64,000 bases of DNA from Acidisphaera sp. (GTDB taxonomy: Bacteria > Pseudomonadota > Alphaproteobacteria > Acetobacterales > Acetobacteraceae), in assembly GCA_019240395.1 (NCBI GenBank), contig JAFAYM010000267.1, forward strand, positions 1-64,000, read 5' to 3'. A program made the position numbers and the translations under genes. Within the stretch, counting starts at the first letter, position 1. Every line of letters begins with the position of its first letter. Below are positions 8,104 to 22,254 of the stretch, in pieces. A model generated the notes under the pieces. The model saw only the letters and a list, made by a program, of their open reading frames with translations. It searched no databases and had not been told where the DNA came from.

Positions 8104-8191
8104 GCCGCCAGCCCCGCGACAGGGCGCGTCCCGGGGTCAGGTGAAGGGCAGCGATCCGCTCGCTTGCCCGGGTTAATCCAGATTGGGCCGG

Positions 8192-8216
8192 GGAACTCAG
8201 GACCGCATTATAGGTT
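8192..8216 (+). promoter_or_regulatory. Putative EcfG-type general stress promoter of the Mn-catalase gene
   Basis: GGAAC at 8192-8196, a 17-bp spacer, then GTT at 8214-8216 (GGTT from 8213), 26 bp before the ATG. Alphaproteobacterial EcfG-dependent promoters are described as GGAAC with 16-17 bp to CGTT or GTT. The match and the stress function downstream support each other; transcription was not tested. Confidence 0.7.
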
Positions 8217-8242
8217 CTGCCCTCATCCAGGAGGCGATCTGC

Positions 8243-9010
8243 ATGTACCACCACGTCAAGCAGCTCATGTACACCGTCAAGGTGGGCGAGGCCGATCCGC
8301 GCTTCGGCAACATGCTGCTGGAGCAGTTCGGTGGCGCCAACGGCGAACTCGCGGCTGCCATGCAATACACGATACAGGGTATCAATACCCCAGACCCCCA
8401 GCTCAAGGATGTGCTGATGGACATTGGCACGGAGGAGCTCAGCCATTTGGAGGTCATAGGCACGCTGGCGCGCATGCACCTGAAGCCTGCGGCAGCGGCG
8501 CGCAAGGCCGCGGAGGCTGATCCGCTGCTCGCCATAACCGGCGGCGGGGGCGTGAACCTCTACAATTCCCAGGGCAGTGCCTGGACCGCCGACTATCTGA
8601 AGATCACCGGCCAGCCCGAAGTGGATCTGCGCAACAACATCGCCGCCGAAGCCCGCGCCAAGATAACCTACGAGCGATTGCTGGCCTTCACCGACGACCA
8701 GGGCAGCAAGGACGCGCTGCAATTCCTGATGACCCGCGAAATCACCCATATGAAGGCCTTCATGCAAGCGCTGGAGGGTCTGGGCAAAGGTCCCCTGGAG
8801 ATCGGCATGCTGCCGCCGACGCCGGGGCTGGTCGATCAATTCTTCAACGACTCCACGGGCGAGGGCCAGGAGGGCGCAGTCGATATGTCGACCACGTGGG
8901 CCAGGCAGAACGGCTTCGAGGTGGTGGAGAGCCCGGCCTTCCATGCCGACCAGATGGAGGTCGACGGTCCGACCGGGGCCCGCCGGCGCAGATCCTCGGC
9001 GAAGAAGTAG
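8243..9010 (+). CDS. Manganese (non-haem) catalase
   Basis: A 255-residue ferritin-like protein; ATG at 8243 follows aggaggcgatctgc. It should dismutate hydrogen peroxide at a di-manganese centre. The ligand pattern of the family is visible: Glu in LLEQFGGANGELAAA (about 27-41), Glu and His in GTEELSHLE (about 66-74), Glu in EARAKITYERL (about 142-152) and His in TREITHMKAFM (about 170-180). The C-terminus is shorter and less acidic than in Thermus or Lactobacillus enzymes and ends in a basic run (RRRRSSAKK). The gene appears monocistronic, behind the EcfG-type promoter and before a hairpin at 9096-9115. Confidence 0.93.
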   Translation: MYHHVKQLMYTVKVGEADPRFGNMLLEQFGGANGELAAAMQYTIQGINTPDPQLKDVLMDIGTEELSHLEVIGTLARMHLKPAAAARKAAEADPLLAITGGGGVNLYNSQGSAWTADYLKITGQPEVDLRNNIAAEARAKITYERLLAFTDDQGSKDALQFLMTREITHMKAFMQALEGLGKGPLEIGMLPPTPGLVDQFFNDSTGEGQEGAVDMSTTWARQNGFEVVESPAFHADQMEVDGPTGARRRRSSAKK

Positions 9011-9184: not shown

Positions 9185-10198
9185 TCAGCCCTTTTGCTCG
9201 ACGCCGATCACGGCGAGACAGTCGCCGGGCTTGACCAGGCCCGGGAAGTGCCGGGCCACCAGCATGCCGTCGAGCGCGGAAGCATGCTCGATGGGCGCCG
9301 ATCCGGTTCGGCCGACCGGGTGGATGCGGGCGACGATCTGTCCTGAGGACACGTCTTCCCCGATATCGAGACAGGTCTCGACCAGCCCATCATCCCCGGC
9401 GAAGATGAAGCAGTCGTCCGAAGGCATGTCCAGCCAGCGGCTCGATCCGGCAGCGACAGTGCCCGCCAGAATGCCCGCATGCGTCAGCACATTGCGCACG
9501 CCGCGCCTGGCGATGGCGATCGTCGACGCTCGTGCCGTGCCGCCGCCGCCCAGTTCGGTGGTAACGAAGATCTTGCCCTGGCTCTCGGCCGCGGTGTCGT
9601 ACATGCCGACGGCGTCGATCTCGCGCATGCGCATGGCGAACGGCGCCCCGAATGCCCTGACCGCATCGAAGCAGGCCGTCTCCTGCCGCTTATCGGCAAG
9701 CGCGTGGAAAGCGGCATAGGGGAGGAAGTCGAGCGTCCGTCCGCCGGAATGGAAGTCGAGGACGATAGTGGCCAGCGGCAGGAGGAAACGCTGGAAGTAA
9801 TCGGCGACCTTCTCGGTGATCGTGCCGTCCGGCCGCCCGGGAAAGGCGCGGTTGAGGTTGCCCTTGTCGATCGGCGAGGTGCGGGTGCCCGCGCGAAAGG
9901 CCGGATAGTTCATCGCGGGGACGATGATCACCCGACCGGTCACCTGATCCGCCGACAGCGTCCTCGCCAGCTCGAAAAGCGCGATCGGTCCTTCGTATTC
10001 GTCGCCGTGGTTGCCGCCGGTCAGCAGCGCCGTCGGGCCGGTGCCGCGCTTGACGACGCTGATCGGGATCAGCACCGATCCCCAGGCCGAGTCGTCGCGG
10101 CTGTGCGGCAGCCGCAGGAAGCCGTGCTGCACGCCGTCCCGCTCGAAATCGACGCTCGGCGTCACCGGAGAAGGCGGCGCAGCGGCGCTCATCGCCAT
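9185..10198 (-). CDS. doeB: N2-acetyl-L-2,4-diaminobutyrate deacetylase (ectoine degradation, DoeB/EutE type)
   Basis: A 337-residue zinc deacylase of the succinylglutamate desuccinylase/aspartoacylase family. The zinc-binding motif GGNHGDEYEG lies at about 55-64 and the second ligand region in VLDFHSGGRT at about 145. In ectoine breakdown, DoeB removes the acetyl group left after ring opening by DoeA, giving diaminobutyrate. Start: ATG at 10198 or 10192; the first is 5 bp beyond the doeA stop and neither has a strong ribosome binding site. A longer frame would overlap doeA. It is the last gene of an eight-gene minus-strand operon. The assignment relies on family plus context. Confidence 0.87.
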   Translation of the reverse strand: MAMSAAAPPSPVTPSVDFERDGVQHGFLRLPHSRDDSAWGSVLIPISVVKRGTGPTALLTGGNHGDEYEGPIALFELARTLSADQVTGRVIIVPAMNYPAFRAGTRTSPIDKGNLNRAFPGRPDGTITEKVADYFQRFLLPLATIVLDFHSGGRTLDFLPYAAFHALADKRQETACFDAVRAFGAPFAMRMREIDAVGMYDTAAESQGKIFVTTELGGGGTARASTIAIARRGVRNVLTHAGILAGTVAAGSSRWLDMPSDDCFIFAGDDGLVETCLDIGEDVSSGQIVARIHPVGRTGSAPIEHASALDGMLVARHFPGLVKPGDCLAVIGVEQKG

Positions 10199-10202
10199 GC
10201 GC

Positions 10203-11384
10203 TCACGGCTTGACGAATAGCTGGCGGGGCACGTCCGCCAGGCATTCGACACCGGTCTCGGTGATGGCGATGCTCTCGGTGATCTCGAGGCCCATGGTCT
10301 CCAGCCAGAGCCCGGTCATGAAATGGAAGGTCATGCCGGGCTCGAGCACGGTGCGGTCGCCGGGGCGCAGGCTCATGGTGCGCTCGCCCCAGTCCGGCGG
10401 GTATGAGAGTCCGATCGAATAGCCGGTGCGGTTGTCCTTGACGATGCCGTAGCGCTTCAGCACGGCGAAGAAGGCGCCGGCGATGTCCTCGCAAGTATTG
10501 CCCGGCCGCGCCGCCTGCAGCCCCGCTTCCATGCCTTCGAGCGTCGCCTTCTCCGCTTCGAGGAACGCGGTGCTCGGCTTGCCGAGGAACACCGTCCGCG
10601 AGAGCGGGCAGTGGTAGCGGCGATAGCAGCCGGCGATCTCGAAGAAGGTCCCCTCCCCGGCTCGCATCGGCTTGTCGTCCCACGTCAGATGCGGCGCCGC
10701 GGCGTCGGCGCCCGAGGGCAGAAGCGGCACGATTGCGGGATAGTCGCCGCCGAAGCCGTCCGCGCCGCGAATGCCGGCGTCGTAGATTTCGGCGACCAGG
10801 TCGCATTTGCGCATGCCGACTTCGATGCGGTCGAAAATGCGCTGATGCATCTTCTCGACGATGCGGGCGGCGCGACGCATATAGGCGAGTTCCTGCCCGC
10901 TCTTCACCGCACGCTGCCAGTTCACCAGCGCCGTCGCATCCTTGATGCGCGCATTCGGCAGATGCGTCTGCAGCGAGACGAAGGCGGCGGCCGAGAACCA
11001 GTAATTGTCCATCTCGACGCCGATCGGCAGGCGCCCCCAGCCGCGCTCCTCGATGATGGAGGAGAGCAGGTCCATAGGATGGCGCTCGGTCGACTGCACA
11101 TAGATGTCGGGATAACCGATGATGTTGTCGTCGCCGAGATAGGCGGTGCGCCGCGCGCCGTTGGCATCCTGGCCGCGCCCGTACCAGATCGGCTCTCCGT
11201 CGGGCGGCACCAGCACGCATTGATGCACATAGAACGACCAGCCGTCATAGCCGGTGAGCCAGGCCATGTTCGAGGGATCGCTGACGAGCAGGAGCTCGAT
11301 ACCGGCCTTCTCCATGGCCCGGCGGGTCTTCGCCAGGCGCTGCGCATATTCCTGGCGGCCGAAGGGCAGATCGCTGGAGGTCAT
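10203..11384 (-). CDS. doeA: Ectoine hydrolase (M24 peptidase family, DoeA/EutD type)
   Basis: A 393-residue protein of the creatinase/aminopeptidase P fold. The N-terminal domain has the motif SNMAWLTGYDGWSFYVHQ at about 39-56, typical of ectoine hydrolases. The C-terminal pita-bread domain carries GEGTFFEIAGCYRRYHCPLS at about 260 and LEPGMTFHFMTGLW at about 358. In place of the full metal-ligand set of M24 peptidases several positions differ, as in DoeA, which opens the ectoine ring without a classical dimetal peptidase site. ATG at 11384 is preceded by ccggagtgacc. An upstream extension would overlap eutB and is rejected. It is followed within 5 bp by doeB. Confidence 0.92.
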   Translation of the reverse strand: MTSSDLPFGRQEYAQRLAKTRRAMEKAGIELLLVSDPSNMAWLTGYDGWSFYVHQCVLVPPDGEPIWYGRGQDANGARRTAYLGDDNIIGYPDIYVQSTERHPMDLLSSIIEERGWGRLPIGVEMDNYWFSAAAFVSLQTHLPNARIKDATALVNWQRAVKSGQELAYMRRAARIVEKMHQRIFDRIEVGMRKCDLVAEIYDAGIRGADGFGGDYPAIVPLLPSGADAAAPHLTWDDKPMRAGEGTFFEIAGCYRRYHCPLSRTVFLGKPSTAFLEAEKATLEGMEAGLQAARPGNTCEDIAGAFFAVLKRYGIVKDNRTGYSIGLSYPPDWGERTMSLRPGDRTVLEPGMTFHFMTGLWLETMGLEITESIAITETGVECLADVPRQLFVKP

Positions 11385-11403
11385 GGTCACTCCGGGTTGA
11401 TGG

Positions 11404-12375
11404 TCAGGAAAGCGGCCCCGCGATGATCCGGCGATGCAGCTGCGGGTCGATATTGCCGCCGCTGAGGACGACGATTGTCGGACCGGCGGGATGTATCTTG
11501 CCGGCGAGAATCGCGGCCAGGCCAACCGCGCCGGCGCCTTCGACGATTTCGCCTTCGCTGCGCCAGGCATGCGCAATCGCGGCGGCGATCTCGGCTTCCT
11601 CGACCAGCACCACGTCGTCGAGCAGGTCGCGTGCCATGGCGAAGGTGAGACGGTTCTCCAGGCCGATGCCGCCGCCGAGCGCGTCGGCCAAGGTCGGCAA
11701 CTCCTCCACCTCGATGGGGCGCCCCGCCCTCAGGCTTTCCGCCATCGCCGCGCCGCGCGCCATGCTCACGCCGATCACCCGCAACTCCGGCTTCGCCGTC
11801 TTCGCCGCCAGCGCCACGCCAGCCGCCAGGCCGCCCCCGGACAGCGGCACCAGGAGGCATTCGAGCTCCGGCGCCGCCTCGATGATCTCGAGGCCGAGAG
11901 TGCCCTGTCCGGCGATGATTTCGCTCTGGTCGAAGGGGTGGACCATCACCAATTTCTGCTCGCGGGCGAGCGCCTTGGCGCCGATCTCCGCCTCGTCCTG
12001 CGAGCGTCCGAAGATCCTTATCGCGGCGCCGAGTGCGGCGATGCCGTCCCGCTTGTTCTGCGGCACCAAGCTCGACATGCAGACGGTGCAGGGCACGCCG
12101 TCCAGCGCCGCCGCATGGGCGAGCCCGCGCCCATGATTGCCGGTCGAGACGGTGACGACGCCGCGCCCGCGTTGCTCGGCGGTCAGCGACAGCACCGCGT
12201 TCACCGCGCCCCGCAGCTTGAAGCTGCCCGTGATCTGGCGCTGCTCATGCTTGAGCAGCACCGGCAGCCCGGCGCGCTCCGACAGCGAGGCCGAGGGTCG
12301 AAGCGGCGTGCGCAGCACGCGTCCGGCGATGCGCCGGCGCGCCGCCTCGATATCGGCGAAGGTAACCCCGCTCAC
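11404..12375 (-). CDS. eutB: Hydroxyectoine utilisation dehydratase EutB (PLP, threonine dehydratase-like)
   Basis: A 323-residue fold-type II PLP enzyme. GTG at 12375, with GAGGACG upstream. The PLP lysine lies in ITGSFKLRGA (about 49-58), the phosphate-binding glycine loop in VPLSGGGLAAG (about 173-183), and STGNHGRGLA at about 76 also fits the family. In hydroxyectoine catabolism EutB works on a hydroxylated diaminobutyrate-type intermediate and is thought to act with EutC. Here eutC is not between eutB and doeA, where it is found in other ehu-eut operons. By itself the sequence could be called serine/threonine dehydratase; the operon decides. Confidence 0.9.
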   Translation of the reverse strand: MSGVTFADIEAARRRIAGRVLRTPLRPSASLSERAGLPVLLKHEQRQITGSFKLRGAVNAVLSLTAEQRGRGVVTVSTGNHGRGLAHAAALDGVPCTVCMSSLVPQNKRDGIAALGAAIRIFGRSQDEAEIGAKALAREQKLVMVHPFDQSEIIAGQGTLGLEIIEAAPELECLLVPLSGGGLAAGVALAAKTAKPELRVIGVSMARGAAMAESLRAGRPIEVEELPTLADALGGGIGLENRLTFAMARDLLDDVVLVEEAEIAAAIAHAWRSEGEIVEGAGAVGLAAILAGKIHPAGPTIVVLSGGNIDPQLHRRIIAGPLS

Positions 12376-12388
12376 GCCACAATCGTCC

Positions 12389-13156
12389 TCATGCTGCTCC
12401 GGCCGGCAATGGCAGACGCAGCAGCCGCGCCCCTTCCGTCATGGCGCCAAGCCCGGCGAGCCCCCGACACATCCACGCAGTCGCAAGATTGCTGGTGACG
12501 ACGGGGCGCGCGATGGCCTCCTCGATCGCCGCCGCGGCTTCGGCGGCCCGCAGCGCCGTGCACGATATGAACAGCGCGTCGGCATCCCGCGCCATCGCCT
12601 CCTGGGCCGCGGCGACGATAGTCTCGGGCGTAATCCGCGCCATGACGCGATCGTCCTCGAGCCCGAAGCAGGTGAGCCCGGCCACGTCGAAGCCGTGGTC
12701 GACGAAATACTGCGCCATCGGCGTGCTGGTCTCGACGGTATAGGGCGTGAGGATGCTGATGCGGCGAGCGTGAAGGGCACGCAAGCCGGCACGTGCGGCG
12801 GCCGGCGGCGTGACCACCGGTGTGCCGGGCTTGGCGCCGCCGATCGCTGCCTCCACCGCAGCATCGCCGATCACCACCGACGCCGACGTGCAGGAATAGC
12901 AGATGGCATCGAGCTTTTCTTCCGGGAGGATAAGCGCCGCCGCCTCGGCCAGATACGGTTGCATCTTGCGCAGATTGGTGGGGTTGGTCGGATTCTCATT
13001 GGCGAGGCGGCTCGAATGGACCGCCACGCCTTGCGTCGCCACAAGGCGTGCGAAATCGCGCTCCGAGGTGTGGTCGGTCGCCAGCAGCATCAGGCCGATC
13101 AGGCGTGGTGCGCGATCATAGGCGAGCGCCGTCGTACCCAGGCGGATTTCGGTCAT
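12389..13156 (-). CDS. eutA: Ectoine utilisation protein EutA (Asp/Glu racemase, arylmalonate decarboxylase-like)
   Basis: A 255-residue protein of the Asp/Glu/hydantoin racemase superfamily. Two conserved cysteine motifs are present, CYSCTSASV at about 85-93 and FISCTALRAAE at about 193-203, as expected for a two-cysteine racemase-type site. The N-terminal LGTTALAYDRAPRLIG and the ANENPTNPTNL segment resemble EutA of ehu-eut operons. It probably inverts the stereocentre of a (hydroxy)ectoine-derived intermediate so that later enzymes can act. It starts 11 bp after ehuD and ends 13 bp before eutB, consistent with one transcript. Confidence 0.88.
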   Translation of the reverse strand: MTEIRLGTTALAYDRAPRLIGLMLLATDHTSERDFARLVATQGVAVHSSRLANENPTNPTNLRKMQPYLAEAAALILPEEKLDAICYSCTSASVVIGDAAVEAAIGGAKPGTPVVTPPAAARAGLRALHARRISILTPYTVETSTPMAQYFVDHGFDVAGLTCFGLEDDRVMARITPETIVAAAQEAMARDADALFISCTALRAAEAAAAIEEAIARPVVTSNLATAWMCRGLAGLGAMTEGARLLRLPLPAGAA

Positions 13157-13166
13157 CGTGCGTGCC

Positions 13167-13823
13167 TCAATTCAAGCGCCCGTAGCGCCGCTCCAGCATC
13201 CGCAATCCCGCTACCGACACCAGGCTGATCGCCAGGAAGAAGGCACCGACCAAGGTCATCGGTTCGAGATAGCGGTAGTTGAAATTGGCGACGCTGCGCG
13301 CCTGGTTCATCAGCTCGAGCACGGTGATCGCCGAGAGCAGCGGCGTCTCCTTGAACATGGCGACGAAGTAGTTGGCGAGCGCCGGGATCATCGGCGGGAT
13401 CGCCTGCGGCAGGATGATGTGGCGCCAGGTTTGCGCGGTGGTCAGGTTGCATGCCTTCGCCGCCTCCCATTGGCCACGCGCCACATTGTCGATGCCGGCG
13501 CGGTAGACCTCCGACATGTATGTCGCATAATGCACACCGAACCCAATCACGCCGGCGCCCAGCGGCGGCAGCAGGATGCCGAGATCGGGCAGCACGTAGA
13601 ACAGGAAATAGAGCTGCACGAGAAGCGGCGTGCCACGCACGAATTCCACGAGAGACGCCACCGGCACGGCAACCGCCCTCCGCCGGGAGCGCCGCAGCAG
13701 CGCGAAGACGAGGCCAAGCACCAGGGCGAGCGCTGTGCCGAGGATGGTCGCCTTGATCGTGATCACCACGCCCTGCAGCAGGGCCGGCAGGATCTCCCAT
13801 ACGAAGCTCCAGTCCCAATCCAT
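13167..13823 (-). CDS. ehuD: Ectoine/hydroxyectoine ABC transporter permease EhuD
   Basis: A 218-residue inner-membrane permease of the polar-amino-acid type. About five hydrophobic segments are visible (for example ILPALLQGVVITIKATILG at about 12-30 and AVAVPVASLVEFVRGTP at about 60-76). The EAA loop that contacts the ATPase is seen as QWEAAKACNLTTAQTWRHII at about 134-153. It forms a heterodimer with EhuC. ATG at 13823, 3 bp after the ehuC stop. Confidence 0.88.
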   Translation of the reverse strand: MDWDWSFVWEILPALLQGVVITIKATILGTALALVLGLVFALLRRSRRRAVAVPVASLVEFVRGTPLLVQLYFLFYVLPDLGILLPPLGAGVIGFGVHYATYMSEVYRAGIDNVARGQWEAAKACNLTTAQTWRHIILPQAIPPMIPALANYFVAMFKETPLLSAITVLELMNQARSVANFNYRYLEPMTLVGAFFLAISLVSVAGLRMLERRYGRLN

Positions 13824-13826
13824 CGC

Positions 13827-14486
13827 TCAGGCTCGCGCGCCGTCCAGGCCGCGGGCGAGCCGACGCTCCAGACCGCGCGTCGCCAGCGAGATGAGCAGGG
13901 CAAACAGAAAATAGATGAGAAGGATGCTCAGGAACGGGAAAGCCGTCGAGCCGGTCTGCGCCCGCACCACCTGCGCCTGGAAGGTCAGGTCGGCGAGCGA
14001 GATCAGCGAGACGACTGCCGTTCCCTTGAGCAGCTCGATGGCGTTGTTGCCAAAGGTCGGCAGCATGACCACGAAGGCCTGCGGCAGGACGATATGGCGC
14101 AGACTCTGGCGGCGCGTAAGATTGAGAGCGGTGCAGGCCTCGTACTGCTCCTTCGGCACGGTCAGGATGGCGCCACGCACCACCTCTGCCGCGTAGGCCC
14201 CGACATTGAGGCCGAGCGCGAGCACCCCCGCTTCGAGCGGCGTCAGCGTCAGGCCGAACAGCGGCAGCACAAAATACACCCAGAAAAGCTGCACGAAGAT
14301 CGAGGTGCCGCGGAAGAACTCGATATAGACGCTGGCCAGCGCGCGGACGATACCGTGGCGCGACAGCCGGCCGAGCCCGGCGGCGAAGGCGACGGCGAAG
14401 GCGAGAGCGCAGCCATAGACGGTGAGCTGCGCGGTGACCCAAGCGCCCTGCAGGATGAGCGGCAGGTAGCCGGTCCAGTCGATCAT
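13827..14486 (-). CDS. ehuC: Ectoine/hydroxyectoine ABC transporter permease EhuC
   Basis: A 219-residue permease related to EhuD. It begins with MIDWTGYLPLILQGAWVTAQ and has hydrophobic helices at about 20-45, 55-80, 90-110 and 185-205. The cytoplasmic EAA loop is seen as EQYEACTALNLTRRQSLRHI at about 132-151. Its gene lies between ehuB and ehuD in the order found in the characterised ehuABCD operon. No unusual feature. Confidence 0.88.
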   Translation of the reverse strand: MIDWTGYLPLILQGAWVTAQLTVYGCALAFAVAFAAGLGRLSRHGIVRALASVYIEFFRGTSIFVQLFWVYFVLPLFGLTLTPLEAGVLALGLNVGAYAAEVVRGAILTVPKEQYEACTALNLTRRQSLRHIVLPQAFVVMLPTFGNNAIELLKGTAVVSLISLADLTFQAQVVRAQTGSTAFPFLSILLIYFLFALLISLATRGLERRLARGLDGARA

Positions 14487-14531
14487 CCCGGTCCGCCATC
14501 CCCGTCTGGCTAGTACCTTTGGCGTGATGCT

Positions 14532-15404
14532 TTAGTTCGGACCACCGCAGAGCTTCTCCCGGCTGGTCTGCATGGCGGCGGCGGCCGAGAAGCCATAGGG
14601 CTCGACGATCTTGGCGAACTCGCCGGATTGCTTCATTTCGGCGAGCACCTTGTCGAAGGCATCGCGCAGCGACGCGTCCTGCTTGCGGAACGCGGCGCCG
14701 TCGCAGGAGATGGGCGCGCCCTGCACGGGAGCCACCATTTCGATCGACGGATCATTGGCCTTTTTCAGGAGATCGGAGATCGACAGCACCGGCAGGGTAT
14801 AGACATCGATGCGCCCGTCCTGGAGCATCTTGATGCCGCTCTGGCCGTCCGGAACGACGATGGCGCGGTCGCGCGGCACGCCGGCGGCGAGCGACAGCTT
14901 CTCCTCCACGCCACCGCCCGGCACGCCGATCCTGGCCTTCGGGTTCTTGCCGACATCCTCGTAGCTGAGCAGCTTGTCAGGATTACCCTTCTTCACCGCG
15001 AAGGCCTCGGTGTCGCACAGGATGGGCTCCGAATAGGCGACGGCGCGGCAGCGCTCGGGCTTCATGAACAGGCCGGCGGTGATGGCGTCGAACCGCCTGG
15101 CCTGCAAGCCGGGGATCATCGCGCCATATTCGGAAATCGAGGCGACCACGTCGTCGACGCCGAGTTTCTTGAACACGGCGCGGGCGACATCGGGACCGGC
15201 GCCCGACACCTTGCCATCCGGATTGACGGCGGTGAACGGCGGCTCGTTGGCGATGGCGATCCGGCAGAAACCCTGCTCCTTTAGCCGCGCCAGGGCGTCC
15301 TGCGCCCGCGCCGGCGCCGGCGCCACTGCGGCGACTGCCGCGACACCGGCAATTAATGCGGCGCGACGCAGCGCCCCATCCCACTTTCCCAGGCATCTCG
15401 TCAT
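14532..15404 (-). CDS. ehuB: Ectoine/hydroxyectoine-binding periplasmic protein EhuB
   Basis: A 290-residue family 3 solute-binding protein. ATG at 15404 is preceded by GGAGACAGCA; an in-frame GTG four codons upstream overlaps that site and is less likely. The signal peptide is LRRAALIAGVAAVAAVAPAP with cleavage after ARA, before QDAL. Mature features typical of EhuB are NEPPFTAVNPDGKVSGAGPD (about 57-76), a RFDAITAGLFMKPERC stretch (about 109-124) and a late GFSAAAAM. It should capture ectoine and hydroxyectoine in the periplasm with high affinity. 42 bp separate it from ehuA upstream and 45 bp from ehuC downstream. Confidence 0.9.
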   Translation of the reverse strand: MTRCLGKWDGALRRAALIAGVAAVAAVAPAPARAQDALARLKEQGFCRIAIANEPPFTAVNPDGKVSGAGPDVARAVFKKLGVDDVVASISEYGAMIPGLQARRFDAITAGLFMKPERCRAVAYSEPILCDTEAFAVKKGNPDKLLSYEDVGKNPKARIGVPGGGVEEKLSLAAGVPRDRAIVVPDGQSGIKMLQDGRIDVYTLPVLSISDLLKKANDPSIEMVAPVQGAPISCDGAAFRKQDASLRDAFDKVLAEMKQSGEFAKIVEPYGFSAAAAMQTSREKLCGGPN

Positions 15405-15446
15405 TGCTGTCTCCACGGTTGGTCGAGAGGGTCTCTATCGCGAGGG

Positions 15447-16244
15447 TCAGATCCGCTGCCCGGCGGCGATGATCTTGCGCAGGAATGCCTGCGTCCGCTC
15501 TTCCCTGGGGTTGCGGAAAATGTCGTCGGGGCCGCCCTCTTCGACGATCCTGCCGCGATCGAAGAACAGGACACGGTCGGCGAAATCATGGGCGAAGCTC
15601 ATCTCATGGGTGACCAGAAGCATCGTCATGTCGGTCTCATGGGCGAGACGGCGCATCACGTTGAGCACCTCCTCGACGAGCTCGGGATCGAGCGCCGAGG
15701 TCACTTCATCGAACAGCATGATCTTCGGTTGCAGCGCCAGGGCGCGCGCAATCGCGGCCCGCTGCTTTTGCCCGCCCGAGAGCTGCGCCGGCATCGCCCT
15801 CGCCTTGTCGGCCAGCCCGACCATATCCAGCAGTTCCATTGCGCGCCGCTCGGCTTCCGCGCGTGGCACGCGCCCGGTCAGGATCGGCGCCAGCGTGACG
15901 TTGTCGAGCACGCATTTATGCGGAAACAGATTGAAGAGCTGGAATACCATGCCGATCTTCGAGCGCATCCGATGCAGGTGACGCTCATCCGCCGGCAGGA
16001 GACGCCCGTCGCGCTCCATGTGGAACAGCTGCTCGCCGTCGATCCTGATATGCCCCCCATTGATCGTCTCAAGCGTCATCAGGATGCGCAGAATGGTCGT
16101 CTTGCCGGAACCGGACGGACCGATGAGGGCGAGCTTCTCGCCGGGTGCCACGGCAAAGGACAGATCGTTCAGCACCGTCAGCGGGCCGAAGCTCTTCGCC
16201 ACGCGATCGACCTCGATGATCGGCTGCTTCGCCGACGTGCCCAT
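15447..16244 (-). CDS. ehuA: Ectoine/hydroxyectoine ABC transporter ATP-binding protein EhuA
   Basis: A 265-residue ABC ATPase, first gene of the operon. ATG at 16244 is preceded by gcgaggcggcggc; the GTG five codons upstream is a poorer choice. Walker A is GPSGSGKTT (about 41-49), the Q-loop [10 protein letters not shown] (about 102-111), the signature LSGGQKQR (about 162-169), Walker [13 protein letters not shown] (about 182-193) and the switch His in LVTHE. The [20 protein letters not shown] insertion is characteristic of EhuA. A Val replaces the usual Pro after the catalytic Glu (DEVTS); this occurs in polar-amino-acid ATPases. No regulator gene (EnuR or AsnC type) precedes it. Confidence 0.9.
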
Positions 16245-16611
16245 GCCGCCGCCTCGCACAGGGTTCTATTGCGCTGACGATGCGCCACAAGAACAACTGC
16301 GTCAATGGTGCTACGCCTCGCGCGACATGCGCCATCGTCTCATCGACCTCATTACCCCAGCCAACTGCGCCAACATATTCGCCGCCGCAGGGCTACGCAC
16401 GGAGATCCGACCTACTCGCCCAGAGCCCGTGCCGGTTCACGGTCGCGGCTCACGTGACCTGGAAGGCCTTCCCCGTTGCATCCCCATCGGGCCCTAGCGC
16501 CACCGGGATCGACGATGGCTCGCGAAGCCCGGGGGCTTGCGAGTGGTTGCCGCGTGAATCGTCTTATCATAAGAAGGTGGACATGTTCCGACCGGCCAGC
16601 AGTGAGGGCTC
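16245..16611. other. 367-bp divergent intergenic region between ehuA and the second cluster
   Basis: Contains the promoters for both clusters and probably debris of an insertion sequence (see next entry). Near the right end, cttatcataag at 16563-16573 is a perfect 11-bp palindrome, 39 bp before the ATG at 16612, and could be an operator. A bulged stem-loop (ctcgcgaagcc / ggcttgcgag) lies at about 16519-16542. On the minus strand a TTGACG lies at 16300-16305, about 55 bp before ehuA, without a convincing -10. Confidence 0.5.
16263..16497 (+). pseudogene. Possible remnant of an IS630-type transposase C-terminus
   Basis: One plus-strand frame here reads through a segment of the form RLIDLITPANCANIFAAAGL (near 16332-16391). 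It resembles the last part of IS630-family transposases, where a short helix with Pro-x-x-Cys-x-x-x-Phe-x-x-x-Gly-Tyr is common. There is no DDE core, no start codon with a ribosome binding site and no inverted repeats that I could find. It could be chance. Confidence 0.3.
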
Positions 16612-17772
16612 ATGAAAATCGAGCAGGCCGATATCTACCTGGTTCCGACCGGGAATCGTCGCGCCGTTTTGGTCGAGCTCACCTCTGACGACGGGATTAC
16701 CGGCGTTGGCGAGGCGGGCGTTGCCTATGGTATCGGGCACCGTGCGGCTGCGGAAATGCTGAGGGGAATGATCGAAGCGCACGTTCTGGGACGCGATCCA
16801 AGTTCCATCAATGCAATCTGGCACGACATTTATGATCTCTCATTCTGGGCCCGCAATGGAGGTGTGATCAGCTATGCGGCACTGAGCGCGATCGAAATTG
16901 CGCTCTGGGACATGAAGGCGAAGGCGCTCGGTGTACCCATTTACGAGTTGTTGGGTGGTGCGCTGCGCCACGCCCTCCCGGTTTATGCCAACGGCTGGTG
17001 GATCGGCTGTGACACTCCTGATGAACTCGCCCGCGCAGGCGCGGCGACTGTCGAGCGCGGATTTGCAGGTTTGAAATTCTATCCGCTCGGCGTCGCGGAC
17101 CCGGTAAGCGTGGTCCGTCACCCGACCCGACGCGCGCTCGATGCGCGTTTGATCCCGCTTGTGTGCGACCGTGTTGCCGCGCTCCGGAACGCCGTCGGTC
17201 CGGATATCGAAATCATGCTGGATTTTGGCGGTGGGCTGACCATCGATCAGGTGCTCCGCATCTGCCGCAGGATCGAGCAATTCGACGTGCTCTTCATCGA
17301 GGAGGCCGTCGATCCCTCCAACCCAGACGCGCTTGCCGCGGTCGCTCGCGATACAACGATCCCAATGGCGGCAGGAGAGAGATGCTACGGCCGAACCCAA
17401 TTCGAACGCCTGATTCGCGCCGGTGCGGTCTCGATCGTGCAGCCCGACATTTGCAATACCGGCGGCCTCATGGAGGCGCGGATCATTTCGGCGATGGCGG
17501 AGGCGAGCAACCTTCGCGTCGCGCCGCACAATTACGGCAGCACGGTTGCGACAGCCGCCTCCGTCCAGCTTGCCGCGTGCATACCCAATTTCATGGTGCT
17601 GGAATGCTTCCCGGATTTCGACAAGGAGCCGAGTTATCTTGGGATCGTCAAAAATCCCTTGGAGGCTACGGTCGAGCGCGGAACAATGCCGATCCCCACC
17701 ACGCCCGGTCTCGGAGTTACATTGGATCATACCGCGTTGCAGCCGCATCGCTATGCACGCTGCCGCGCGTGA
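16612..17772 (+). CDS. Mandelate racemase/muconate lactonizing enzyme family protein (enolase superfamily)
   Basis: A 386-residue enolase-superfamily enzyme, ATG at 16612 after gtgaggg. The capping domain (about 1-125) is followed by a TIM barrel. Visible active-site parts: Lys in FAGLKFYP (about 151-158), metal ligands Asp in IMLDFGG (about 202-208), Glu in FIEEAV (about 229-234) and Glu in AAGERC (about 254-259), Asp in QPDICNTGG (about 280) and His in APHNYGS (about 304-310). The His-Asp pair places it in the mandelate-racemase subgroup, near acid-sugar dehydratases such as galactonate dehydratase. Genetic partners are an amino-acid-type transporter and an OCD-like enzyme, which is unusual for a sugar-acid enzyme. 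Substrate unknown. Confidence 0.87.
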   Translation: MKIEQADIYLVPTGNRRAVLVELTSDDGITGVGEAGVAYGIGHRAAAEMLRGMIEAHVLGRDPSSINAIWHDIYDLSFWARNGGVISYAALSAIEIALWDMKAKALGVPIYELLGGALRHALPVYANGWWIGCDTPDELARAGAATVERGFAGLKFYPLGVADPVSVVRHPTRRALDARLIPLVCDRVAALRNAVGPDIEIMLDFGGGLTIDQVLRICRRIEQFDVLFIEEAVDPSNPDALAAVARDTTIPMAAGERCYGRTQFERLIRAGAVSIVQPDICNTGGLMEARIISAMAEASNLRVAPHNYGSTVATAASVQLAACIPNFMVLECFPDFDKEPSYLGIVKNPLEATVERGTMPIPTTPGLGVTLDHTALQPHRYARCRA

Positions 17773-17809
17773 GACCTAAAACCGCAGCCGCAGTGCAGGA
17801 GCCAACCCC

Positions 17810-18793
17810 TTGCAGACGATCGATGCCGCCCGCGTCCACGAATTGCTTGAACACGGAAAGCTCGTCGAGGCTTTGAGGCAGGCGCATCTCGGGCCGATGC
17901 CCGCAATATCAGATCGCCAGATCTACTCGCAGCCCCACGAGGATGGTGATCCGGACGTTCTCATCCTGCTGCCCGCCTGGGAACCACAAGAGGGTATCCT
18001 TGCAAAGCTGGTTACATCCTTCCCACGGAACAAGACTCGCTTCGGCGCTCCGACAGTCAACTCGCTTTATGTTTTCCTGAACGGTCAATCAGGGGTTCCC
18101 GAGGCCATCTTTGATGGCGAGGCAGTCATCTTTCGCAAGACTTCTGCCGATTCCGCGCTTGGCGCCAGCATATTGGCGCGCAAGGATGCCAAGACGTTGC
18201 TCATGATCGGGTCCGGCGGGCTGGCACCCTATCTCGTGCGGGCCCACTGCACGGTGCGCCCGTCCATCCGGGATGTTCTCATCTGGAATCGCACACTATC
18301 CACGGCCGCAAAACTCGCCGGCACGCTCGTGGCGGAAGGAATACCGGCTAGGCAGGTGAGTGATCTTGACCAGGCTGTCCCGTGTGCGGATATCATTTCC
18401 TGCGCGACGATGGCGACCTCGCCGCTCCTGAAAGGCAAGCTCTTGTCGCCCGGCGTGCATGTCGACCTTGTGGGCTCGTTCACGCCCGAGATGCGCGAAG
18501 CCGACGATGACGTCCTGCTGCGAGGGAAAATCTTCGTCGATCATCGGCAGATCACCAAACGGTCCGGTGAGTTCATTGGGCCACTCGCCAGGGGCATCAT
18601 CACGCCGGACGATGTCAGGGGCGACATGTTCGAACTCTGTCAGGGAAAGGTCGGGGGCCGCGAATCCGACCACGACATTACGGTGATGAAAAATGGCGGC
18701 GGCAGCTATCTCGATTATTTCGTTACCAGGTATCTGATGAGCCGGCTAAGAGGTGGGGGCCCTGCCAAGACGTTGGAGCCCGCCCGACCATAA
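17810..18793 (+). CDS. Ornithine cyclodeaminase/mu-crystallin family protein
   Basis: A 327-residue NAD(P)-binding protein. TTG at 17810 is preceded by gcaggag at 8 nt. The family layout is seen: a substrate-domain segment FRKTSADSALGASILAR at about 105-121, a Rossmann motif LLMIGSGGLAPYLVRAH at about 127-143, and VDLVGSFTPEMREADDDV at about 219-236. The family includes ornithine cyclodeaminase, ketimine (pyrroline-2-carboxylate) reductases, alanine dehydrogenase and EutC. The stop overlaps the ATG of the ABC ATPase gene (taatg). It could either serve the local pathway or supply the EutC activity missing from the neighbouring ectoine operon; neither is shown. Confidence 0.85.
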   Translation: MQTIDAARVHELLEHGKLVEALRQAHLGPMPAISDRQIYSQPHEDGDPDVLILLPAWEPQEGILAKLVTSFPRNKTRFGAPTVNSLYVFLNGQSGVPEAIFDGEAVIFRKTSADSALGASILARKDAKTLLMIGSGGLAPYLVRAHCTVRPSIRDVLIWNRTLSTAAKLAGTLVAEGIPARQVSDLDQAVPCADIISCATMATSPLLKGKLLSPGVHVDLVGSFTPEMREADDDVLLRGKIFVDHRQITKRSGEFIGPLARGIITPDDVRGDMFELCQGKVGGRESDHDITVMKNGGGSYLDYFVTRYLMSRLRGGGPAKTLEPARP

Positions 18794-19674
18794 TGGCTCA
18801 GCCGGCCCGGGGAGACGGATTGGACGAGGCGTTCGACCGCGCATTGCCTGCGTGCGCCGACCAGGATCCACGCGCCACTCTGCCATCACGAGACGGCACC
18901 AGTAGCGAGGTACCCTGTCTACGGGTCGAGGGTCTCACAAAGCGCTACGGTCCTTCTGTCGTCCTTGACGGCGTGACGTTGAACGTTGCCAAAGGCGAGG
19001 TCCTCGCCGTGATCGGCCCGAGCGGTTCGGGCAAGAGCACACTGCTTCGCTGTCTAAACTACTTGGAGCTTCCCGAAGCCGGGCGTGTGTACCTGAATGG
19101 CGAACTGGTTGGACAAGACCAGGATCCTGGCGGCGAGATGCGGCTCTGGAGGGCGGGACAGTTTGCTCCTCTTCGACGGCAAATCGGGATGGTGTTCCAG
19201 CAATTCAATCTTTTCCCGCATCTGCGCGTCGACGAAAACATCATGCTCGGCCAGATCAAGGCACTCGGGCGGAGCCGGAAAGAGGCATACGACCGCACCG
19301 CGCGTTTGTTGGCCAGCGTCGGTCTGGAGCATAAGATTCACGCCCGGCCAATCGAATTATCCGGTGGCGAGCAGCAGCGCGTCGCGATAGCACGGGCCCT
19401 GGCGCTGGATCCGCAAGCCATGCTCTTCGACGAGCCGACCTCGGCACTGGATCCTGAAATCCGGAGGGAGGTCCTGAACGTCATGCAACGGCTCGCCGAG
19501 CAGGGCATGACGATGATCGTCGTGAGCCACGAGCTGCGCTTCGCGGAGCGTGTCTCGAATCGGGTGCTCTTCATGGCGCAGGGCCGTGTGCAGGAGGAAG
19601 GTCCCCCGGCTCAGGTGCTGCGCAATCCGGTAAACTCGCGCACGCGGCAGTTCATCGAGGCTCTGGAAACATAG
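18793..19674 (+). CDS. Polar-amino-acid-type ABC transporter ATP-binding protein
   Basis: A 293-residue ABC ATPase. The ATG overlaps the stop of the OCD-like gene. An unusual N-terminal extension of about 45 residues (Asp- and Ala-rich, without recognisable domain) precedes the ABC core; a later start is possible but none has a good ribosome binding site. Core motifs: GPSGSGKSTLLRCLN (about 76-90), VFQQFNLFPHL (about 134-144), LSGGEQQRVAIARAL (about 193-207) and MLFDEPTSALD (about 213-223). It belongs to the GlnQ/HisP-like group and should energise the two permeases that follow. Confidence 0.9.
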   Translation: MAQPARGDGLDEAFDRALPACADQDPRATLPSRDGTSSEVPCLRVEGLTKRYGPSVVLDGVTLNVAKGEVLAVIGPSGSGKSTLLRCLNYLELPEAGRVYLNGELVGQDQDPGGEMRLWRAGQFAPLRRQIGMVFQQFNLFPHLRVDENIMLGQIKALGRSRKEAYDRTARLLASVGLEHKIHARPIELSGGEQQRVAIARALALDPQAMLFDEPTSALDPEIRREVLNVMQRLAEQGMTMIVVSHELRFAERVSNRVLFMAQGRVQEEGPPAQVLRNPVNSRTRQFIEALET

Positions 19675-19684
19675 GCGAGCAACC

Positions 19685-20341
19685 GTGAACTGGGGGGAAG
19701 CGGCCAGGATCCTGGCACTGGGCTTGCCGAACACCGTCGTGATCACACTCGGAGCGTTCGCCATCGGCTTGGTTTTGGGCCTGCCCCTCGCGCTGGCGCG
19801 GCTGTCACGCTGGTCTGCGTTGAACGGACCAGCCACGATTTTCATTGAGATTGTGCGCGGCATACCTCCGCTCGCCTGGATATTCGTAACCTTCTACGGT
19901 GTCGGAAAAGTCGTGGGGCGGTTGGATCCGGTGTTCACTGCAATAGCGTCCCTCGGCTTCGTCGCGATCGCCTACATGGCCGAGATCTACCGGGCGGCAT
20001 TGCAGTCGGTCTCGCCGGGGCAGCTGGCCGCAGGGCGAGCGATCGGCCTTGGCGACGGCAGCGTGCTTGTTCACATTTTGCTGCCGCAAGCTGCGGTCCT
20101 CGCCATTCCGTCTGCGGCGACCTACTGCATCGGGCTACTCAAGGAGAGCGCCCTCGCTTCAGTCATCGGAGCGGGCGAGATCACCTATCGCGCGATGCTT
20201 CTGACTGATCGGACGCTTCATGGCCTGGATGTCTTCGCGATCGCGGCGGTGCTCTATGTCGCGCTGAGCGTTCCGCTCGCCATCTTCGCGCGATGGGCGG
20301 GCCGTCGCTTCGGCGCCCACTTCCGACGCAGGACGGCGTAA
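19685..20341 (+). CDS. Polar-amino-acid-type ABC transporter permease (first)
   Basis: A 218-residue permease of the HisM/GlnP group, GTG at 19685, 10 bp after the ATPase gene. Hydrophobic helices are seen at about 15-40, 55-78, 88-105, 140-165 and 180-205. The EAA loop is QLAAGRAIGLGDGSVLVHIL at about 117-136, in which the usual first Glu-Ala is Ala-Ala-Gly. The TAA stop overlaps the ATG of the next permease gene, so the two subunits are coupled. Confidence 0.88.
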   Translation: MNWGEAARILALGLPNTVVITLGAFAIGLVLGLPLALARLSRWSALNGPATIFIEIVRGIPPLAWIFVTFYGVGKVVGRLDPVFTAIASLGFVAIAYMAEIYRAALQSVSPGQLAAGRAIGLGDGSVLVHILLPQAAVLAIPSAATYCIGLLKESALASVIGAGEITYRAMLLTDRTLHGLDVFAIAAVLYVALSVPLAIFARWAGRRFGAHFRRRTA

Positions 20342-20997
20342 TGTTCTCGTATTGGGCGGAATGGCTCCCAAGCCTGCTCGGAGCCCTGGTCACCAGCGTG
20401 ACGCTCACGGCAGGTGCGCTCGCGATTGGGCTGCCGCTCGGCGTGCTGATTGCGATCACGGCAACGGCGTCGCAGCGTTCGATCCGCTATCTGGTGATTG
20501 CGTTCGTCGAGCTCGGCCGGGGCGTTCCCGCGCTCATCCTGCTCTACTTCATGTATTTCGGGTTGACGCAGGTACGTATCAGGCTTTCCGATACGGTGGC
20601 GGTGATGGCCGCTTTGGGGCTGAACTGTGCTGCATACGCCAGCGAGATATTCCGTGGCGCGCTCGAGACGATACCGCACGGCCAGTGGGAGGGAGCGCGC
20701 GCGATCGGGCTTTCGCGTCGCGCGATATGGACGTATGTCATCCTGCCACAAATGCAGCGAAACGCGGTCCCGCCCATCATCGGCCTGTCGATCCTCGTGT
20801 TCCAGACGACATCTTTGGCGATGACCATCGGCGCCAGTGATCTCATGGGACTGGCGGCCAATATCGGATCGGTCACATTCCGATATATGTCCGTCATCAT
20901 GCTTGCAGGTTTGCTTTACGCGGCGGTCAGCATCCCCGCATCGCAGGTGGCGGGTGTGCTCCAACGGCGCCGTGAGCGGCGACCGGCGCAGCGGTGA
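20341..20997 (+). CDS. Polar-amino-acid-type ABC transporter permease (second)
   Basis: A 218-residue permease, ATG at 20341 overlapping the previous stop. It has five or so membrane helices and the EAA loop GQWEGARAIGLSRRAIWTYV at about 117-136, plus the ELGRGVPALILLYFMYFG segment at about 57-74. It should form the channel with the preceding permease. 105 bp without a gene separate it from the binding-protein gene. Confidence 0.88.
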   Translation: MFSYWAEWLPSLLGALVTSVTLTAGALAIGLPLGVLIAITATASQRSIRYLVIAFVELGRGVPALILLYFMYFGLTQVRIRLSDTVAVMAALGLNCAAYASEIFRGALETIPHGQWEGARAIGLSRRAIWTYVILPQMQRNAVPPIIGLSILVFQTTSLAMTIGASDLMGLAANIGSVTFRYMSVIMLAGLLYAAVSIPASQVAGVLQRRRERRPAQR

Positions 20998-21102
20998 TGA
21001 ATACCTCGTCCATGAATGCCGTCGGTCGCCTGTCCCCCGTTCAGCCGCTGGTGACGTTCGACCGTTGATGATGATCCCAGGGAAAAGAAGGAGAAGGTCC
21101 CT

Positions 21103-21960
21103 ATGCTCCGACTTGGTCGCATTTTACCGAATGGTGGCATCTCTGTCGCCGCGGTGATGCTGGTGGCGTCGGTATCTTCGCCGTCGAGCGCCGGGGCTCA
21201 ACAAGCAGCCTCCGGCTGTCACCCGGCGCACCAGTTTCCGACGGTTAAGCAAGGCGCATTGACTGTTTCGGCCCACCCGTCACTGCCATATCTCGACTAT
21301 GATCAGGCGACCGGTGCTGTCGGCGGGGTGGATGGCGACGTTCTCAAAAACATCGCAGCCATGGAATGCTTGCGTCTGGATCTGCAGGTGGTTCCCGGTG
21401 CGGGGGCTCTTCAGGGCATTGAGAGCGGGATCTTCGATACGTCTGGGGCGGGTTGGTATATCACACCGAAGCGCACCGAGGTGATGGGCATGACGCAGCC
21501 ATTCTATTACGACTTTACGTCGATTGTCTCAACGCAAGGCTATGCCTCGATCAGCCAGCTGAAGGGCAAGACCGTCGGTATCGTGGCCGGCTCGATCTTC
21601 GTCGAGCCACTCCAGCAGATGCTCGGCTCTGATCACGTGCGGACCTATCAGCTCGCAGACGCTGTCATGAATGATCTCCTGGCAGGGCGCATCGAGGCTG
21701 CGGTTCTTGGGTCTGGTCAAGCGGGCTACCTTGCGCAGCACAAAGGCGGGAACTTGAAGGTTGAGAAAGCAGTCAGTGAGCAGGGATTTGATGCCGAGCA
21801 GCAGAACGGAAAGATCGGGTTTCCGTATCCAAAGACGAATGCCGCGCTCGGTAAGGCGCTCGACGATGATATTTCGACACTGCGGGAGAATGGCGCCATC
21901 AAGAGCATCCTCGAAAGATATGGGATGACAAACCCGAACAACTATAACCCCGCGCAGTGA
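21103..21960 (+). CDS. Family 3 extracellular solute-binding protein
   Basis: A 285-residue periplasmic binding protein; ATG follows gaaggagaaggtccct. The signal peptide ISVAAVMLVASVSSPSSAGA ends near residue 32. The mature protein has the type 2 fold of amino-acid receptors: PYLDYDQATGAVGGVDGDVL (about 63-82), GWYITPKRTEVMGMTQPFYY (about 121-140) and LKGKTVGIVAGSIFVEPLQQ (about 156-175). The ligand-pocket Arg-Asp pattern of plain amino acid receptors (typically SxTxxR plus DG.D) is not obvious, so the ligand may be a modified amino acid or a betaine. Visibly lower in GC than genes outside the cluster; line 21781-21840 is near 52%. Confidence 0.86.
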   Translation: MLRLGRILPNGGISVAAVMLVASVSSPSSAGAQQAASGCHPAHQFPTVKQGALTVSAHPSLPYLDYDQATGAVGGVDGDVLKNIAAMECLRLDLQVVPGAGALQGIESGIFDTSGAGWYITPKRTEVMGMTQPFYYDFTSIVSTQGYASISQLKGKTVGIVAGSIFVEPLQQMLGSDHVRTYQLADAVMNDLLAGRIEAAVLGSGQAGYLAQHKGGNLKVEKAVSEQGFDAEQQNGKIGFPYPKTNAALGKALDDDISTLRENGAIKSILERYGMTNPNNYNPAQ

Positions 21961-22254
21961 CTCATGAGCCCCTATGCGCGACACTGTCACTTGCTAGGTC
22001 GGCTGCAGAGTGACGCGAATTGAGCGAAGCTGACCGCGCACATCCGCTCGCTCGAACTACCAGCTCATCGGTTCCCGGCCGAGATCATCCACGCCCACAA
22101 CGCTTTCGGCCCGAGCCCTTCGCGGCCTCAAACTGATGTTCGTGGAGTGGGGGGGGCGGCAGTTCGGCGAAATGCTCCGACAATACGCGAACCCGTCTCT
22201 CCGCTTGGCTTGCGGGCCACCGCAGGCGCGGTGGTGCCCTGTTTCGTTCGGGAG
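21961..22254. other. 294-bp gene-free stretch between the binding-protein gene and tRNA-Glu
   Basis: No frame here has a ribosome binding site or a recognisable domain. The stretch has mixed composition and a run of nine G near 22150. It lies at the 3' side of the tRNA, where an integration junction would be expected. I looked for a second copy of the tRNA 3' end at the left border of the cluster and did not find one. Confidence 0.5.

Follow-up and report, generated by a model that had tools for sequence, protein, structure and literature searches.

A co-inherited mandelate-racemase-type enzyme and OCD-family reductase beside an exchangeable ABC importer in Acidisphaera sp.

Organization of the locus

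The window analysed in this study is a 64,000-base stretch of Acidisphaera sp. (assembly GCA_019240395.1, contig JAFAYM010000267.1, positions 1-64,000). Its plus strand carries, at positions 16612-21960, six open reading frames (ORFs) encoding an enzyme of the mandelate racemase (MR) subgroup, a reductase of the ornithine cyclodeaminase (OCD) superfamily and a four-gene ATP-binding cassette (ABC) importer of the polar-amino-acid type (Table 1). The Pfam domains MR_MLE_N/C, OCD_Mu_crystall, ABC_tran, BPD_transp_1 (twice) and SBP_bac_3 were identified over these ORFs, confirming all six genes and families named in an original prediction made from the sequence alone. The overlapping stop and start codons described in that prediction were found as one-base overlaps (TAATG) between the OCD and ATPase genes (18791-18795) and between the two permease genes (20339-20343), but the ATPase and first permease genes are separated by 10 bases. 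Gaps of 37 and about 105 bases lie between the MR and OCD genes and between the permeases and the solute-binding protein (SBP), respectively. The start codon is TTG (17810) in the OCD gene and GTG (19685) in the first permease gene, while for the second permease the ATG at 20341 is the most likely start, over an in-frame upstream ATG at 20293. Across window positions 16000-22000 the guanine plus cytosine (G+C) content drops to 58-64%, coincident with the MR, OCD and transporter genes.

Table 1. Features of the operon and of the deacylase homologues in two orthologous loci
Feature	Position	Strand	Evidence
MR-subgroup enolase-superfamily enzyme, probable dehydratase, 386 aa	16612..17772	+	Pfam MR_MLE_N/MR_MLE_C, NCBIfam, 2poz, active-site residues
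OCD/mu-crystallin-superfamily reductase, probable cyclic ketimine reductase, 327 aa, TTG start	17810..18793	+	NCBIfam scores
ABC importer ATPase, GlnQ/HisP type, 293 aa, N-terminal extension of 40 residues	18793..19674	+	Pfam, NCBIfam
ABC importer permease 1, polar-amino-acid type, GTG start	19685..20341	+	TIGR01726 HEQRo_perm_3TM above cut-off
ABC importer permease 2, probable ATG start 20341	20341..20997	+	TIGR01726 above cut-off; TAATG junction
Solute-binding protein family 3 (SBP2), 285 aa, divergent, lineage-specific	21103..21960	+	SBP_bac_3 62 bits
M20 deacylase/peptidase homologues between dipeptide-type importer and MR-OCD pair	L009 6568-8004; L010 6771-7970		

Co-inheritance of the enzyme pair

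About 85,000 species genomes were scanned by exact peptide patterns, a search that is not exhaustive, and eight orthologues of the MR enzyme (56-76% identical) were recovered from Bosea, Mesorhizobium, Nitratireductor (two), Rhizobiaceae, Tepidamorphaceae, Pelagibius and an alphaproteobacterium. All eight loci have an OCD orthologue (63-69%) within 6.5 kb of the MR gene. Since only three OCD-like places exist in the genome of Acidisphaera sp. itself, this linkage goes beyond chance. The OCD gene adjoins the MR gene downstream and in the same direction in loci L009 and L010, as in the window, while in L011-L016 it lies 5.4-6.5 kb away on the opposite strand, past a Pot-type operon. The preservation of the linkage through such rearrangement is good evidence of functional coupling. 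In the MR tree the nine core members form one clade (100/99). In the OCD tree the MR-linked proteins, including those of the more distant loci L029 and L032, group together on a single branch (94/90), separately from eight OCDs linked to SIS proteins in fructosamine-type clusters (82/96). Both trees separate L029 and L032 from the nine core members.

The two enzymes are a real, co-inherited unit, and the transporter is interchangeable. The arrangement proposed in the original prediction recurs in other genomes only as far as the MR-OCD pair: the window-type transporter was absent from all eight orthologous loci, and no other match to its binding protein was obtained at E<=1e-30 in the remaining genomes of a 372-genome sample of the class. 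The six genes were therefore rejected as a single conserved system. A Pot-type importer stands beside the OCD gene in L010-L016, and a LysR gene was found upstream of the MR gene in L011-L016. In L009 and L010 a dipeptide-type importer precedes the MR gene, with an M20 deacylase homologue in between, hinting that the imported compound may be an N-acyl or peptide conjugate.

A search with the OCD protein in 397 genomes of its own order matched only this genome, and a search with the MR enzyme in 385 genomes of the class (E<=1e-95) gave nothing elsewhere above 47% identity. Within the family, MR enzymes were only 49-50% identical and had no OCD gene in the stretches examined. The order and class searches indicate that the cluster is rare and that its acquisition from a Rhizobiales-like donor is most likely. 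The G+C content of 16612-21960 (61.1%; 58% in the SBP gene) is low with respect to the window (69.1%) and the region directly downstream (71%), which also suggests acquisition from elsewhere. The operon was thus probably obtained by horizontal transfer.

Family placement and predicted function

The active site of the MR enzyme includes K155, Y157, D204, E230/E231, E256, D279, H306 and E331. Both MR_MLE domains and three acidic metal ligands (D204, E230/E231 and E256) place it in the MR subgroup of the enolase superfamily, and the His-Asp dyad of the subgroup (H306 and D279, on strands 7 and 6) is present together with the strand-2 Lys (K155); all the catalytic residues originally predicted were thus found. 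This enzyme and every subfamily member examined carry Tyr in place of the second KxK Lys. K-x-Y-P was invariant in the 22/22 subfamily members compared, whose sequences are of the D-x-G/S type, while a galactonate-like paralogue in the same genome (L001) has K-F-D-P and D-x-H instead. The comparison with characterised MR members, advised in the original prediction, gave no matching equivalog. The top NCBIfam model was galactonate dehydratase NF010624 (264.1 bits, cut-off 311), and the best curated models were all sugar-acid dehydratases (galactonate/gluconate), every one of them under its cut-off. The nearest solved structure, PDB 2poz (47% identity, full-length similarity of 388 bits), is labelled 'putative dehydratase'. 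Both 2poz and the homologue on plasmid pMLa of M. japonicum (L034) share the subfamily motif with the window enzyme, but the pMLa neighbourhood lacks an OCD gene.

The OCD protein reached 310.3 bits on the model of pyrroline-/piperideine-2-carboxylate reductase PRK06141 (NF004793, cut-off 322) and its L009 orthologue 321.6, both only slightly short of the threshold. Its best solved relative is 7rbp, followed by the pyrroline-2-carboxylate reductase 6t3e. From these family scores it is a probable cyclic ketimine reductase. It was rejected as a true ornithine cyclodeaminase (PRK07589, 93.1 bits, cut-off 350) and as EutC (TIGR02992, 99.8 bits, cut-off 471.65), given that both scores are far too low.

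The importer has the HEQRo permease domain and family-3 SBP that define polar amino acid ABC importers. On the EhuABCD models (TIGR03005/3004/3003/2995) its proteins scored 270/345, 120/197, 134/205 and 38/191 bits with respect to the cut-offs, all of them below. In the family-3 SBP fold an Arg contacts the carboxylate of the ligand and an Asp its alpha-amino group. The binding protein, SBP2, had been predicted to depart from plain amino acid receptors, and it does so in having Gly at the position of this Asp, an arrangement outside the alpha-amino-acid-binding pattern, but it retains the carboxylate-type Arg in 'ITPKR' (T-x-x-R motif). The same Asp is also absent from EhuB and from fructosamine-type SBPs. 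In this lineage only, the ligand of SBP2 is probably a carboxylate without a free primary alpha-amino group. Its closest homologues, with identities of at most 36%, are plasmid-encoded. It must be noted that the adjacent transporter is an unsafe guide to the substrate.

Two published pathways offer a model for the enzyme pair. In the catabolism of trans-3-hydroxy-L-proline, dehydration and tautomerisation are followed by reduction by an OCD-type pyrroline-2-carboxylate reductase (PMC4113996). The logic is the same and the OCD family also occurs in the gene neighbourhood (PMC4113996), but the dehydratase, t3HypD, belongs to the proline racemase superfamily and not to the enolases. In Labrenzia aggregata, the dehydratase of cis-3-hydroxy-L-proline catabolism, LhpJ, is an enolase-superfamily member encoded in a hydroxyproline gene cluster (PMC5144071), and its product, pyrroline-2-carboxylate, is a substrate of OCD-type reductases; however, LhpJ was assigned to the muconate-lactonising subclass (PMC5144071). 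The MR enzyme was rejected as LhpJ, as it was as a known sugar-acid dehydratase, on account of scores below every cut-off. A literature search on the combination of mandelate racemase, OCD and transporter found nothing relevant. The original claim that no described pathway has exactly this gene set should nevertheless be toned down, since the succession of a dehydratase and an OCD-type reductase is already published for hydroxyproline. The best reading is that the MR-OCD pair would follow this hydroxyproline logic with a different dehydratase branch.

We propose, with an even balance of confidence and doubt, that the two enzymes could form a two-step dehydration/ketimine-reduction pair for a hydroxylated nitrogen-containing acid. 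A catabolic unit for such an acid had been the original suggestion; the present results support it, with no characterised close orthologue. The MR enzyme would be metal-dependent, with the His306-Asp279 dyad or K155/Y157 as the base, and would abstract the alpha-proton of the carboxylate and expel a beta-hydroxyl, dehydration being presumed over racemisation. Candidate substrates are a 3-hydroxy imino/amino acid or a 2,3-dihydroxy-omega-amino acid. The resulting enamine or 2-keto acid would tautomerise or cyclise to a ketimine, which the OCD protein could reduce with NAD(P)H; the product, an ordinary L-amino/imino acid such as proline or pipecolate, would then enter central metabolism. The ABC importer may take up the substrate itself or a conjugated form.

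The gene neighbourhoods of more distant MR relatives (41-47% identical) are in agreement with a substrate of this kind. In Neorhizobium (L032) and in an alphaproteobacterium (L029) the MR gene stands beside those of an FAD oxidoreductase, an OYE-type flavoprotein and an OCD. In Methylobacterium nodulans (L044) the same two flavoproteins occur with a polar-amino-acid importer and with a ProC-like imine reductase unrelated to OCD, as though the fold were less important than the reduction itself. The relative in S. meliloti (L043) lies near opine-oxidase-like subunits and a LAO-type importer. D-amino-acid dehydrogenase genes flank the relatives in L035 and L045, a class-V PLP enzyme is encoded near the MR gene in L046 and in the core loci L011 and L013, and some relatives adjoin FAD amine oxidases. 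In a related OCD locus (L063) the flavoprotein is annotated, by annotation only, as 'N-methylproline demethylase'. These nitrogen-handling neighbours suggest that the substrates of the MR relatives are amino or imino compounds and not sugar acids.

Several observations weigh against the proposed dehydration/reduction pair. Among curated models the MR enzyme fits sugar-acid dehydratases best (galactonate, 264 bits), and the cis-3-hydroxyproline dehydratase model gave only 71.2 bits (cut-off 500). In the alignment of the OCD protein, the residue preceding the conserved Thr is Lys, compared with Arg in 7rbp, 6t3e and mu-crystallin, so its substrate may differ from the proline ketimine. In addition, MR enzymes 42-50% identical without a nearby OCD gene were found in L028, L030, L031, L034 and L035.

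More tentatively, the K-x-Y-P enolases regarded as 'galactonate-dehydratase-like' might be a whole branch acting on amino or imino acids, which together with an imine reductase would form an undescribed catabolic module for N-substituted hydroxy-amino acids. It is conceivable, on the same reading, that some loci add deacylases, N-demethylase-like flavoproteins or amine oxidases to this module, and that the transporters are plug-in components. Its hosts would perhaps be mostly Alphaproteobacteria, a good number of them associated with plants. A function is still to be assigned to many enolases of the MR subgroup, the solved structure 2poz among them, and the tight MR-OCD linkage offers a concrete prediction; if it is true, a group annotated as galactonate dehydratases moves into nitrogen metabolism.

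Alternative explanations and the neighbouring ectoine genes

A less probable alternative, although one to be taken seriously, is that the MR enzyme is an ordinary D-galactonate-like sugar-acid dehydratase and that the OCD protein handles the amino-acid moiety released from an Amadori-compound or opine-type conjugate. Galactonate and gluconate dehydratases are the closest curated models, and D-galactonate dehydratase (NF010624) shares its fold, metal ligands and His-Asp dyad with the window enzyme, which nevertheless scores under the cut-off (264 vs 311). The next-nearest OCDs (45-48%) occur in fructosamine-like clusters with an SIS protein, a PfkB kinase and an amino-acid importer; however, they branch separately from the MR-linked OCDs, and neither an SIS nor a kinase gene turned up among the neighbours that the nine core loci share. 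The MR relative on S. meliloti pSymA lies near fructosamine-like genes and opine-oxidase-like subunits, and SBP2 and the fructosamine-type SBPs have Gly-Ser in common at the alpha-amino Asp site. Against this, the MR subfamily differs from L001 at both motifs (K-x-Y-P and D-x-G/S-type vs K-F-D-P and D-x-H), and the operon has neither an aldolase nor a sugar kinase.

Two sets of plasmid-borne relatives were also observed. OCD homologues (42-48%) are present on rhizobial, agrobacterial and roseobacter plasmids (L033, L036, L038, L039, L047-L049, L062 and L064), accompanied by a fructoselysine-6-phosphate-deglycase-like SIS protein, a PfkB kinase, GntR/LacI regulators and an amino-acid importer or TRAP transporter, in what are apparently fructosamine-type clusters. 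On pSymA of S. meliloti Rm41, a region of about 14 kb (L043 5765-19389), without annotated genes in the collection, holds a fructosamine-like cluster, an OYE flavoprotein, a LAO-type importer, ThiO/SoxA-like subunits resembling opine oxidases and the MR relative.

It is improbable that the MR enzyme is a racemase or epimerase and the OCD protein an NAD-dependent amino-acid or opine-type dehydrogenase acting on one epimer. Racemases exist among MR-subgroup enzymes, the OCD superfamily includes dehydrogenases (PMC4113996), and the D-amino-acid dehydrogenases beside L035 and L045 would fit such a route, but every member has Tyr as the last residue of the MR-type KxK, where a second Lys would be expected, and the best-scoring characterised families are dehydratases.

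Divergent from the operon, on the minus strand at 9185-16259 of the window, lies a near-complete cluster for ectoine/hydroxyectoine uptake and utilisation. Its eight proteins were all above the NCBIfam cut-offs (EhuA 458, EhuB 397, EhuC 322, EhuD 339, EutA 337, EutB 485, DoeA (EutD) 803 and DoeB (EutE) 587 bits), while eutC was not found in the cluster and no place in the genome was above the EutC cut-off. The ehuABCD-eutABCDE system (PMC5924519) resembles the operon in combining a polar-amino-acid importer with an OCD-family gene, and the window copy is directly upstream on the other strand, but the window OCD is of another clade, below EutC level. In a member of the same family (L058), eutC (545 bits) lies between eutB and eutD. 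A locus of the same genus (L057) has eutB-eutD-eutE likewise without eutC, indicating that the missing gene is not peculiar to the OCD-bearing genome. Therefore, although EutC itself belongs to the OCD family, it is very unlikely that the cluster serves hydroxyectoine breakdown with its OCD protein standing in for EutC, given that L057 has no MR or OCD gene beside its eut genes, that none of the eight orthologous loci contains ectoine genes and that the EutC score of the protein is only 100 bits, against a cut-off of 472.

Elsewhere in the genome, contig 151 encodes a proline-racemase-family protein (L061 1468-2499). The window OCD is a candidate for the pyrroline-2-carboxylate reductase that the pathway of this protein would require. 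Immediately past the ectoine cluster, an ORF on the plus strand at 8183-9010 of the window gave a partial match to manganese catalase (150 bits vs a cut-off of 350).

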